A stretch of DNA of 42,000 nt. Origin: a virus. Shown piece by piece: positions 1,719-16,261 of this stretch; within the stretch, counting starts at the first letter, position 1, and every line of letters starts with the position of its first letter. The notes under the pieces were generated by a model, which did no database searches, was not told the origin of the DNA, and saw only the letters and a list, made by a program, of their open reading frames with translations. The stretch covers positions 1 to 42,000 of IMG/VR virus record IMGVR_UViG_3300040810_000096, one strand, 5' to 3'. Both the position numbers and the translations under genes were made by a program.

Positions 1719-2381
1719 TTAAAATTCAGAGTCAGGTTCTAATGCGATCCAATATTGTACGTTCTTACCTCTAGAAATAAAACTAGATATTTTTGCTTTT
1801 GAGATTGCTACATCGTAATCATCTGGTATCATTTTAAAGTTTTCTGATTTAAAGTAAGCAGTAAACTTAATATCTGATTCGCCAATTACAGTAGATACTT
1901 CGTTAGAAGATTTATTCTTTTTATCTGTTGCAACAAGTTTAATGTTTTTACCATCACCTATTACAGATACATCTGGTAAATTTAAAGTTGTAACACCTTT
2001 GTGTAATTCTACCAAGTCATCATTCTTTAATGTAAATGTGACATGATTATCTGGCATGTTAATCTTGTTAGGTGTAAATATAGTAGATTTATCAGAAAAG
2101 AAATACTTAACTGATTTACTAGATTTAGCCTCACTGATTGTCATGCTAGCACCACCATTAAATTTAAGTTCAGGACTTTTAAATAAGTCTAGTGATCTTA
2201 AAAATTGTGGTAGATCATAGATAGCAAATTCGCTATCAAATTTTTCTTTTATTTCAGCTTCTGCTAAAATATTTCTCATATTGGAAATAGTTTGTATTTT
2301 ATTTCCTGGCTTAATTAAAATATTCTGATTAATATCAGAAAAGTTTTTTAACATAGCAATTGTTTCTGTTGACAAGTTCAT
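1719..2381 (-). CDS. 45: gp45 sliding clamp (processivity factor)
   Basis: The product of 220 residues corresponds to the trimeric T4 sliding clamp, which tethers the DNA polymerase and also activates late transcription with gp55. The opening MNLSTETIAMLKNFSDIN and the ending IALEPDSEF are typical. I use the ATG at 2381 and not the upstream in-frame ATG at 2402, because AAAGGTG lies 7 bases before 2381, and those bases would be coding in the longer form. It is the first protein gene after a promoter at 2491-2519 and lies just downstream of a tRNA-like gene in the same transcript. gp44 follows directly. Confidence 0.92.
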   Translation of the reverse strand: MNLSTETIAMLKNFSDINQNILIKPGNKIQTISNMRNILAEAEIKEKFDSEFAIYDLPQFLRSLDLFKSPELKFNGGASMTISEAKSSKSVKYFFSDKSTIFTPNKINMPDNHVTFTLKNDDLVELHKGVTTLNLPDVSVIGDGKNIKLVATDKKNKSSNEVSTVIGESDIKFTAYFKSENFKMIPDDYDVAISKAKISSFISRGKNVQYWIALEPDSEF

Positions 2382-2409
2382 TATATATTCACCTTTTTTC
2401 ATTGTTTAA

Positions 2410-2483
2410 TGGAGCGGATACTTGGTACTGCCCCAAGTTCTAAAGATTGGAAATCTCTCATAATACTTTTATACTATATCCGC
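2410..2483 (-). tRNA. tRNA-Gly(UCC), unusual elbow, CCA encoded
   Basis: The 74 bases fold as a cloverleaf. Acceptor stem is GCGGATA/TATCCGC (7 bp), discriminator T, then CCA. D-stem is GTA/TAT. Anticodon arm is AGAGA/TCTTT (one G-U pair) around loop TTTCCAA, giving T33, anticodon TCC and A37. The variable loop has 4 bases and the T-stem is CTTGG/CCAAG. Part lengths match those of bacterial tRNA-Gly(UCC) apart from one base in the D-loop, and U73 fits glycine identity. Odd points: the T-loop is GGCAGTA with no TTC, and the D-loop has no GG pair, so the normal elbow contact is absent. The 5' end falls about 8 bases after a -10 box. It could be a working non-standard tRNA, a decayed one, or a tRNA-like leader of gp45. 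Confidence 0.72.
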
Positions 2484-2490
2484 ATTATTG

Positions 2491-2519
2491 ATCCTACTAC
2501 AGATCAAATAAAAAGTCAA
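2491..2519 (-). promoter_or_regulatory. Early promoter for tRNA-Gly and gp45-gp44
   Basis: Read on the minus strand, GGCTTGACT supplies a -35 box (TTGACT, 2514-2519), then 17 bases, then TAGGAT (2491-2496). Predicted initiation is at about 2484, one base before the tRNA 5' end. Two more promoters in the window share the GGCTTG and TAGGAT boxes with the same spacing. Confidence 0.6.
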
Positions 2520-7762: not shown

Positions 7763-7791
7763 ATCCTATATGGAAAATACAGAAAAGTCAA
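7763..7791 (-). promoter_or_regulatory. Early promoter at the cobT-like start codon
   Basis: TTGACT (7786-7791), 17 bases and TAGGAT (7763-7768), preceded by GGC. The -10 box ends 8 bases before the ATG at 7754, so the mRNA would have almost no leader. AGGAT could instead act as ribosome site for a longer transcript. Confidence 0.5.
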
Positions 7792-7867
7792 GCCATTAAA
7801 TATCGTTGATTTTACTTACTTTTTGAAAGAACACAACCAGAACATTATATTTTTCATGGTAGATTCG

Positions 7868-9208
7868 TTATCTCCCTACCTGATTCAAGTACTTTTCCTT
7901 GCACTGTTCCCAATCAAGGTATATTAAATCATCATAGAAGTGTGATTCTTTAGAGAATCTATCGGTTGCTAGTAAGTTTTTAATTCTTTTAGAGGCATGT
8001 TTATCTTTCCATACTTTAACTAATGCTTCGGTAGACGAATCAAATCTAGATATTAGACCGTCATCTTTTACTTCGCCTCTTAAATACTCATAAGTGTTTT
8101 CATATAATCTTGCAAAATAGATACCTCTAGCGTGATCTGTTTTAATTAGTTTTTTATCTATACCCATTTTAGAATAGGTAAACATATATGATCTATTCTT
8201 ATGATCTCTCTTTAATGGTTGGCCGTTGGCTCTTGTTGCCTCATACCACTCAAAGTATTTTTTAGTATGATTTTTCTTTAACCATTGTTTAATTAGTTTT
8301 TTAGTTTCTGGTTGTGGTTCATATGATACTGACCCCATAGTAAAACCCATACGTTTCCAGTATTTTAAACCATCATATTGACTTAATGTATTTGCTTTTG
8401 CTTTACCATATAAAGATGTTGTGGTAACACCAACTAGTTTGTCACCATACTTTTCTTGCCATATTCTTTGTACGTCATCTGATAAACATAGATATGCTAA
8501 TAGTTTACCACCTGTGTAACTATAACCTAGTGGTTGTGTTGGTACAATAGAAGAACCAATTGCTGTATGATTAATCATACCACCAAAAGTTTTACTCTGT
8601 CTATCCCAGCCAATAGCACTGTCTCTAGGTGTTAAATCCATAAAGTCACCAGATATACAAATGACACCTAGATGTTTACCTGATCTATTGTCATTTACAT
8701 TAAAGAATAACTGTCTACCAATATTACTATTGTTTTTCATAGTAGATAAGAAAGTTCTTAATGTATTCCAGTTCTCTGATAATTGTTGAGTTCTTACTGC
8801 TTTGCCTTTAAAATTTTTAGTACTATCATCTGTAAATTCTAATACAGGTTCTAGTTTATCATAATCTTCAGGTGATTCTGGTATCCAGATATTTTTTCTA
8901 ACTGATTCTATTTGATGTTTTTGTTCGGGAGATTTAAGTAATCTTTCAGTACCATATAAGGTAGTAGTTTCTACCGTAGGATATTTTCTATGTACTTCTT
9001 GCCACTTTTGAAATAGTGTATACTCTTGTACTGTCATTTTAGACACGTAACCAAGGTCTTTTTCTATAGCTTCTTTAAGTACTTTCTCATCTATATCTTC
9101 TAAATTAGATATATCATTTTCGTCTTGAAACTGTTGCCACTTTTTTTCAACGCCTTCTAAATCTTGTTTTGCGTGTATATCAAATTCGTCTTTTTGTACT
9201 GCTGTCAT
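7868..9208 (-). CDS. DruA/DUF4338-like protein
   Basis: The 446-residue protein has a central block typical, as far as I can judge, of DUF4338, the DruA family: GVICISGDF, then PRDSAIGWDR, a following SIVPTQPLGY, GGKLLAYL, WQEKYGDKLVGVTT and finally YWKRMGFTMGS. DruA is the defining protein of the Druantia anti-phage system, and free relatives occur in phages; no biochemical activity is securely known. Here it stands alone with its own early promoter between the cobT-like and deformylase genes. No other Druantia component (DruE helicase or others) is nearby. It could be an anti-rival defence, a decoy against host Druantia, or a nucleic-acid enzyme. Family call is from remembered motifs only. 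Confidence 0.5.
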   Translation of the reverse strand: MTAVQKDEFDIHAKQDLEGVEKKWQQFQDENDISNLEDIDEKVLKEAIEKDLGYVSKMTVQEYTLFQKWQEVHRKYPTVETTTLYGTERLLKSPEQKHQIESVRKNIWIPESPEDYDKLEPVLEFTDDSTKNFKGKAVRTQQLSENWNTLRTFLSTMKNNSNIGRQLFFNVNDNRSGKHLGVICISGDFMDLTPRDSAIGWDRQSKTFGGMINHTAIGSSIVPTQPLGYSYTGGKLLAYLCLSDDVQRIWQEKYGDKLVGVTTTSLYGKAKANTLSQYDGLKYWKRMGFTMGSVSYEPQPETKKLIKQWLKKNHTKKYFEWYEATRANGQPLKRDHKNRSYMFTYSKMGIDKKLIKTDHARGIYFARLYENTYEYLRGEVKDDGLISRFDSSTEALVKVWKDKHASKRIKNLLATDRFSKESHFYDDLIYLDWEQCKEKYLNQVGR

Positions 9209-13698: not shown

Positions 13699-13773
13699 TG
13701 GAGCGGGTGATCGGGGTCGGACCGACGGCCTTCTCGTTGGCAACGAGACGCTCTACCACTGAGCTACACCCGC
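13699..13773 (-). tRNA. tRNA-Gly(GCC), CCA encoded
   Basis: The 75 bases form a normal cloverleaf: acceptor GCGGGTG/CACCCGC, D-arm GCTC-AGTGGTA-GAGC with the GG pair, anticodon arm TCTCG-TTGCCAA-CGAGA (anticodon GCC), 5-base variable loop, T-arm GTCGG-TCCGACC-CCGAT, discriminator T and CCA. It would read GGC and GGU. The T-loop has TCC where TTC is usual. A terminator hairpin ends 3 bases before its 5' end, and the gp55 promoter lies just after its 3' end. Confidence 0.95.
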
Positions 13774-14789: not shown

Positions 14790-16261
14790 TTCAAATCTAT
14801 ATTGTGTATCTCATAATTAAAATCTTCACCATTGTAAATATTTATCCGTTCACGAAAATGTGCTAACGTGTAATTTTCTTTGTCTTTATAACTTATGTCG
14901 TCTGCTATATCATATAAAGTCGCAGCTGAATCATTGTCCTTTAATCTTAAACCTCTACCAATACTTTGTAAATTTCTTATACGAGATTTAGAAGGACTAG
15001 CAAAAATAATGTTATGCAAATTCCGTATATTAATTCCGGTTGAAAAAGTGCCGTAACTAGCAACAATAATGGCGTTATCACTTTTCTCCGTAATTTCTCT
15101 AATCTTTTCTCTATCATCTGTTTCTACTCCTCCGTGTACATAGAATACATTTTTATCCTCTGCCTTTTCTTTTATCATTTTTACAAGTTCATCACCGTGT
15201 TTTTCAACATACTGAAATAAACATAAAGTATTTCCTTGTAAACTAGAGGCCAAGTTTCTAATGTATTTGTTTCTTTTTTCATTTCGTACCAAGTAATCCA
15301 TCTCCTCTTGGTAGTTCTTATCTTTCATCATATGTCTTACTTCTTTGTCATGTTGTAATACTAAACATATAATTTTTAATTCGGCTAATTGTTTGTTCTC
15401 TTGCAATTCACTTGTAGATATAACCTTATTAACAACACCAAATAATCCTTCTAACACCAACTTGTGTGTTTTAGTACCATCTAAAGTACCTGTAAGACCT
15501 ATTCTATACTTACATTTTTCTAGTTTGGTCATTATCTTTGTGAGTGAAACTGCCTTAAATAAGTGTGCTTCGTCACCTATGACCATACCAAACTGTTTAA
15601 ACCATACTTTTGGTTGATTGTATATTGATTGCCATGTAGATATAATAACATTTTTATTAGTATCTTTATCATGTCCTTGATATATTTTGTGTACGTTTTT
15701 GTCTGGATTCCAACCATAATCTTTGAAGTCTTTGAATAGTTGTTCTACTAATGATGTTGTTGGTACTATAATAAGTATCTTTTTCTTTTCTTCTTTTAGT
15801 CTTAACATATTAAATCTTACTAATAGATATACTATAAGTGATTTACCAGAGGCTGTTGGAGATAACAATAAACATCTACTCTTTGTTGTTGCATGAATAA
15901 ATGCCTCTTTTTGATAATCTCTTACTTCAAAAGGTATCTTTAATGCTTTTGTAAATGCCTCTACTAATTTTAAATCAACTTTAGTATCAACTGTTTTAGT
16001 ACCATCTACTACTTGTATTTTATTATCTTCACACCATTTAAGTATATAAGGATATAAACCGGCATATATTTGACCAGTTGCATAAGAAAATAATCTTATT
16101 TTTCCGTCCCATACTCTGTTCCTATATGCAGGAACAAACTTATAACCTGGCACCTCAAAACAAAAATACTCTGATAACTCTCTACGTATAGAGGCGTCAG
16201 CGTCTACTTTTAAATAGACATCGTTTATCTTGTCAACTATGATGTATCTTATATCGGGCAT
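14786..16261 (-). CDS. uvsW: UvsW DNA/RNA helicase
   Basis: This 491-residue superfamily 2 helicase matches T4 UvsW in length and plan. The N-terminal domain has FCFEVPGYKF and WDGKIRLF as in UvsW. The motor has motif I (SPTASGKS, about 134-141), DEAH (230-233), TGT (motif III, about 257-259), and QSIGRGLR (motif VI). UvsW unwinds R-loops and recombination intermediates and helps switch from origin-dependent to recombination-dependent replication. I use the ATG at 16261, which overlaps the previous stop as TAATG; a TTG 27 bases upstream is unlikely. Confidence 0.95.
   Translation of the reverse strand: MPDIRYIIVDKINDVYLKVDADASIRRELSEYFCFEVPGYKFVPAYRNRVWDGKIRLFSYATGQIYAGLYPYILKWCEDNKIQVVDGTKTVDTKVDLKLVEAFTKALKIPFEVRDYQKEAFIHATTKSRCLLLSPTASGKSLIVYLLVRFNMLRLKEEKKKILIIVPTTSLVEQLFKDFKDYGWNPDKNVHKIYQGHDKDTNKNVIISTWQSIYNQPKVWFKQFGMVIGDEAHLFKAVSLTKIMTKLEKCKYRIGLTGTLDGTKTHKLVLEGLFGVVNKVISTSELQENKQLAELKIICLVLQHDKEVRHMMKDKNYQEEMDYLVRNEKRNKYIRNLASSLQGNTLCLFQYVEKHGDELVKMIKEKAEDKNVFYVHGGVETDDREKIREITEKSDNAIIVASYGTFSTGINIRNLHNIIFASPSKSRIRNLQSIGRGLRLKDNDSAATLYDIADDISYKDKENYTLAHFRERINIYNGEDFNYEIHNIDLK

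Follow-up and report, generated by a model that had tools for sequence, protein, structure and literature searches.

A phage tRNA-Gly(UCC) upstream of the sliding clamp gene gp45, and a class of tRNAs with a rewired elbow

Known departures from the standard tRNA elbow

The tRNA elbow, in which G18 contacts U55 and G19 contacts C56, is treated as a near-universal feature, with mitochondrial tRNAs and tRNAPyl as the exceptions, and it is touched by RNase P, by the ribosome and by modification enzymes. Can such an elbow be replaced? Suppressor tRNAs with altered D/T-loop contacts, selected in the laboratory by the Steinberg group, reportedly stay active, and the elbow contacts are said on this ground to be replaceable. 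These suppressors are artificial, and their double-helix form requires pairing of 20 with 55 beside that of 19 with 56. The staphylococcal cell-wall tRNA-Gly, host-encoded, of one isotype and tied to Fem transferases, also has an altered elbow sequence; its likeness to the tRNA studied here is that glycine and an altered elbow are common to both. In phage T5, tRNA-Ile1 (AY543070; locus L428, 4211-4287) has A19-U56, and its record states conversion to an amber suppressor. Therefore a re-paired elbow works in E. coli, in the form of a 19-56 swap and not of A18/G55: T5 tRNA-Ile1 is, like ours, a phage tRNA with a re-paired elbow, but it keeps G18/U55 and swaps 19-56 instead.

Natural tRNAs without G18G19 and TPsiC are found in tRNAPyl and metazoan mitochondrial tRNAs (reviewed in PMC7609411). 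Their loops are shortened or the contact is missing, whereas the rewired class described below has normal loop lengths, a re-paired contact and many isotypes. Phage tRNAs evading tRNA-targeting defences have been described with anticodon-loop changes (PMC10264068) and in connection with a retron (PMC11555353). In the available parts of these two texts the purpose is the one proposed below, that phage tRNAs are spared unlike those of the host, but the tRNA features are others, and no mention of T-loop, D-loop or elbow was found there. Literature searches turned up no account of phage tRNAs with rewired elbows; papers behind subscriptions lay outside the search, and an earlier description may exist.

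The tRNA-Gly(UCC) directly upstream of gp45

The window, i.e. the whole stretch of 42,000 nucleotides that was analysed, comes from a T4-like marine phage whose nearest relative is Pelagibacter phage Mosig EXVC030M, with SAR11-type hosts. The features concerned are as follows.

2410..2483, minus strand: tRNA-Gly(UCC) with rewired elbow (A18/G55, G19/C56, G54/G58) and encoded CCA, 74 nt; from sequence, RF00005 and covariation
2463..2471, minus strand: D-loop TAAAAGTAT (positions 13-22; A18, G19); from sequence and numbering
2447..2453, minus strand: anticodon loop TTTCCAA, anticodon UCC (ACC in the Mosig clade); from sequence and homologues
2426..2432, minus strand: T-loop GGCAGTA (positions 54-60: G54 G55 C56 A57 G58 T59 A60); from sequence and numbering
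1719..2402, minus strand: gp45 sliding clamp gene, directly downstream, likely true start ATG 2381 preceded by AAAGGTGA; from the ORF list and homologues
2491..2519, minus strand: candidate sigma70-type promoter TTGACT-N17-TAGGAT; from a consensus scan, 9/12

Read on the minus strand from 2483 to 2410, the element is GCGGATA-TA-GTA-TAAAAGTAT-TAT-G-AGAGA-TTTCCAA-TCTTT-AGAA-CTTGG-GGCAGTA-CCAAG-TATCCGC-T-CCA. All stems are present, with U8, A14, A21, U33, U73 and an encoded CCA, and the D-loop has no GG. With its anticodon UCC and the pairs G1-C72, C2-G71 and G3-C70, this cloverleaf is that of a canonical bacterial tRNA-Gly(UCC), from which it differs by A18/G55 for G18/U55 and G54/G58 for U54/A58, and thus by the lack of a U55 for pseudouridylation. 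Within the elbow pairs 18-55 and 19-56 only G18 and U55 are replaced; the outer pair G19-C56 is retained. A canonical elbow reads G18 G19 and U54 U55 C56, while this tRNA has A18 G19 and G54 G55 C56 and is therefore not filed as a canonical-elbow tRNA.

The Rfam model RF00005 matches 2413-2483 (minus strand) with 43.4 bits, above the cut-off of 29, and the minimum-energy fold consists of the tRNA stems (-21.4 kcal/mol; z -3.5; equalled by none of 200 shuffles). The original prediction, made from the letters of the window, was of a complete bacterial-type tRNA-Gly(UCC) with U73 and CCA, and this is upheld by sequence, RF00005 and covariation; the minus-strand sequence likewise bears out the T-loop GGCAGTA and the D-loop without GG. 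It had also warned that standard finders may miss the tRNA. This holds for ARAGORN, whose sole call in the window is a tRNA-Gly(GCC) at 13699-13773, but not for Infernal, which finds the copy at 2410-2483. ARAGORN recovers 747 of 751 canonical tRNAs and only 77 of 205 rewired ones. Low recovery of this kind would explain why the class has gone unnoticed, since ARAGORN was also the tool behind a worldwide survey of viral tRNAs (PMC6409571); phage tRNA counts based on that program are too low.

In about 50 contigs of pelagimyophages (IMG/VR loci), and in the cultured phage Mosig, gp45 is directly preceded by the element. Among 36 distinct homologues, pairing holds in 98.9% of the 720 base-pair cells, two-sided changes occur in 13 of the 20 stem pairs, and the stem covariation score is 0.641, compared with 0.176 +/- 0.014 when shuffled and at most 0.098 when slid. 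Broken stems in related phages had been named as the sign against the prediction; the stems of the homologues are intact and covary, and their compensatory changes agree with its argument that intact stems speak against decay. While neighbouring pairs vary, G1-C72, C2-G71, G3-C70, C35, C36 and U73 are invariant in the 36 homologues. These are the known identity positions of bacterial GlyRS, and the window copy carries them together with the anticodon UCC. The window tRNA-Gly is under selection and has not decayed.

Anticodon position 34 is not fixed: the window has U and the Mosig clade has A, a base that is uncommon there in bacterial tRNA-Gly. Rewired tRNA-Gly with the anticodon ACC, rare in bacteria, is seen at Mosig-clade loci (L001, L045-L052 and others); these phages have a relative that encodes glycine mainly by GGT. 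In the Mosig record, the tRNA copy is overlapped by a 96-bp hypothetical CDS, Mosig_000011 (QOI68975.1), at 7774-7869 (L001 3506-3601), which is probably not a protein gene.

The gap from the tRNA to gp45 is about 28 nt, on the same strand. From the candidate promoter, transcription would begin at G1 of the tRNA or slightly ahead of it; its score of 9/12 is one that is reached in the region as a whole no more commonly than by chance. A TTGAC..TATAAT-like promoter precedes 53 of the 58 gp45-linked copies.

Coupled changes and extent of the rewired class

Has the contact between the D-loop and the T-loop been lost, as had been claimed? A loop-blind scanner was used as a guard against circularity: it required the stems, U8, U33 and CCA and left both loops free. 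In 322 loci, whose class frequencies are biased because they were gathered through patterns of rewired tRNAs but whose couplings are informative, U55C56 occurred 790 times with GG and 5 times without, and G55C56 occurred 216 times without GG (86 of them matched by no search pattern) and 8 times with it. Couplings were then calculated for 257 representative tRNAs, less than 80% identical to one another, from phages and from tRNA arrays of Verrucomicrobiota; the numbering was fixed, the D-loops were of 9 nt, and every tRNA that matched a search pattern had been taken out. The pair 18-55 was G-U in 159, A-G in 84, G-G in 6, G-C in 4, C-G in 3, U-G in 1 and A-U in none, with a mutual information of 0.80, the largest of 2000 shuffles giving 0.065. 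For 19-56 there were 232 G-C, 9 A-U, 4 U-A, 1 C-G and 11 non-Watson-Crick combinations, and for 54-58 there were 208 U-A, 25 A-U and 18 G-G; the mutual information was 0.30 and 0.77 respectively, and shuffles reached no more than about 0.06. As a control, 20-55 gave 0.041, inside the range of 2000 shuffles, and the pairing of 20 with 55 that defines the D/T-loop double helix is thus not seen in the class. An antiparallel Y20-G55 mini-helix was rejected as well, Y20 being equally common in both classes and 20-55 without association.

The same separation appears among 104 tRNAs located by the Rfam model in five virus records: 45 were rewired, 43 canonical and 16 other, and a mixed elbow (GG with G55C56, or AG with U55C56) was found in none of the 104. 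The claim of a lost contact is not supported. The loops change as matched pairs, A18 going with G55 and G18 with U55, and G19-C56 is kept in the window tRNA; most likely the elbow is rebuilt, not lost. As judged from these sequence couplings, the data support the presence of the contacts 18-55, 19-56 and 54-58 in the rewired class.

The elbow type also switches between orthologous tRNA genes. The tRNA-Gly(GCC) of the window (13699-13773, minus strand) has a GG D-loop and the T-loop TCCGACC (C55). Its orthologues at the same place have 3-kb flanks that are 83-95% identical, and their elbows are canonical in L412 (GTGG/TTCGACC), the same in L419 as in the window (GTGG/TCCGACC), and rewired in L417 and L420 (AAAAG/TGCGAAA). 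A series of tRNA-Phe runs from T5 (GATGGATT/TTCAATT) through EscoHU1 and Proteus phage Stubb (GATGGATT/ATCGTTA) to L257 (GATAGATT/AGCGTTA). The tRNA-Phe of Stubb (L427, 8001-8075), with its A54-U58 swap, is unannotated, and the annotation is missing in most of the listed Proteus relatives too.

How far does the rewired form extend? A pattern search for both loops returned many tRNAs beyond glycine, and the loci collected hold 413 distinct rewired tRNAs, which fall into 18 isotypes and 196 clusters. In five virus records, the non-canonical tRNAs are as intact as their canonical neighbours: U8 is present in 50/56 (89%) versus 42/46 (91%), U33 in 50/56 (89%) versus 42/46 (91%), and CCA in 46/56 (82%) versus 35/46 (76%). 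Since the same swap recurs across 18 amino acids, in tRNAs of phages and mobile arrays that number in the hundreds, the near-universal elbow apparently can be, and repeatedly has been, rebuilt. Nature has thereby run, in hundreds of intact tRNAs, a double-mutant experiment on the requirements of the elbow.

Several candidates at the margin of the class were also looked at. The tRNA-Gly of crAss-like phage cr112_1, a weak blastn match, has a canonical elbow and was rejected. BLAST of rewired tRNA-Ile and tRNA-Asp against isolate phages gave partial matches to annotated tRNA-Ile genes, or none. Loci fetched by an fMet search have nearly all canonical tRNAs, with a few re-paired at 19-56. Natural 19-56 swaps (G18 A19 / U55 U56) occur in tRNA-Gln and tRNA-Cys of mycobacteriophage Cosmo (L430; 3821 and 4518). 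A tRNA with the anticodon CUA and an A-U swap at 19-56 lies at record positions 20564-20636 of L408 (contig of L257), possibly an amber suppressor; elbow types are mixed in this phage.

Proposed function and alternative explanations

What does the tRNA-Gly(UCC) do? We consider it quite probable that it is a functional phage tRNA at the 5' end of the gp45 transcript, with an elbow rebuilt by compensating changes, and that it reads GGA and GGG. Transcription from its own sigma70-type promoter would run through the tRNA into gp45, and the tRNA would then be cut free; the host glycyl-tRNA synthetase would charge the released tRNA, and the charged tRNA would decode GGA and GGG codons. These steps of transcription, release, charging and translational use are likely. 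The glycine codons of the window are mainly GGT and GGA (58 and 22 per 1000), and this usage fits the anticodons UCC, GCC and ACC of the phage group. From this codon fit and the T5 suppressor record, the element is taken as a working tRNA from the gp45 transcript.

One alternative is a tRNA-like cis-regulatory leader, i.e. a 5' structure by which the gp45 mRNA would be stabilised or its translation controlled, RNase P cleavage and the binding of a synthetase being conceivable means, with no part in decoding. A non-translational or gp45-regulatory role had been thought possible in the original prediction, and it receives some slight backing: of the 128 distinct contexts of rewired tRNA-Gly, 58 have it at the head of the gp45 transcript, usually directly behind a promoter, with a short spacer to the gp45 start and a steady linkage to the gp45 leader, and anticodon position 34 varies. 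However, the linkage is not exclusive. The same promoter-tRNA cassette stands before a peroxiredoxin-like gene in 19 contexts and elsewhere in the rest, before other genes, while the element is absent at gp45 of more distant phages and at locus L044. The charging and anticodon positions are conserved past the needs of a leader, and tRNAs of 18 isotypes share this elbow, many of them sitting in arrays distant from gp45, which points to translation. A gp45-specific element is ruled out by the other gene contexts and the many isotypes, a gp45-specific regulatory role is not needed, and we regard the leader as unlikely. Still less probable is a non-ribosomal glycine donor or decoy that avoids EF-Tu like the staphylococcal cell-wall tRNA-Gly. 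The altered elbow does sit in a glycine isoacceptor, and glycine is the commonest rewired isotype in the data, though the search patterns favour glycine; against this, the class spans 18 amino acids and includes an initiator-like tRNA-Met. A decaying tRNA or pseudogene with drifting loops, which the loss of two near-universal bases and the low recovery by ARAGORN might suggest, is hardly credible given compensatory stem changes, fixed loops, coupled loop changes and an intactness that matches canonical neighbours.

If the element is a translational tRNA, why was its elbow rewired? One explanation, which we offer tentatively, is escape from a putative host factor that reads the standard elbow, e.g. 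a tRNA-damaging effector. It is suggested by the several pairing-preserving departures from the standard sequence and by RNA-repair neighbours in Verrucomicrobiota. In a scan of bacterial genomes the rewired form was found mostly in Verrucomicrobiota, in arrays where nearly every tRNA is rewired. The cultured Chthoniobacter flavus has such an array (L402, C52:138000-157900), which includes a Ro60/TROVE protein (15135-16169) and a Lon-like protein, and an ordinary tRNA set elsewhere. An RtcB RNA ligase adjoins five of the Verrucomicrobiota arrays; loci with this neighbourhood are L402, L353, L361, L359, L335 and L387. RtcB was rejected as a general companion in phages, since no more than 4 of 35 virus records carry it.

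A wider form of this reading is more doubtful still: phages and mobile or chromosomal arrays may hold a stand-by tRNA set that is invisible to elbow-reading tRNA inactivators of hosts or rivals. The elbow would then have been rewritten in several independent ways (A18/G55; A19-U56; U19-A56; C19-G56; A54-U58; G54/G58), and in Verrucomicrobiota the stand-by set would lie beside the RNA-repair genes RtcB and Ro60/TROVE. The rewired tRNAs point to a selective pressure on the elbow that is testable in Mosig, T5 and Chthoniobacter flavus.

A separate observation concerns the anticodon loop. U33 is near-universal in tRNAs, and Verrucomicrobiota loci (L322, L328, L336 and others) hold many rewired tRNA-Ile(GAU) with C33, in the loop CCGATAA.
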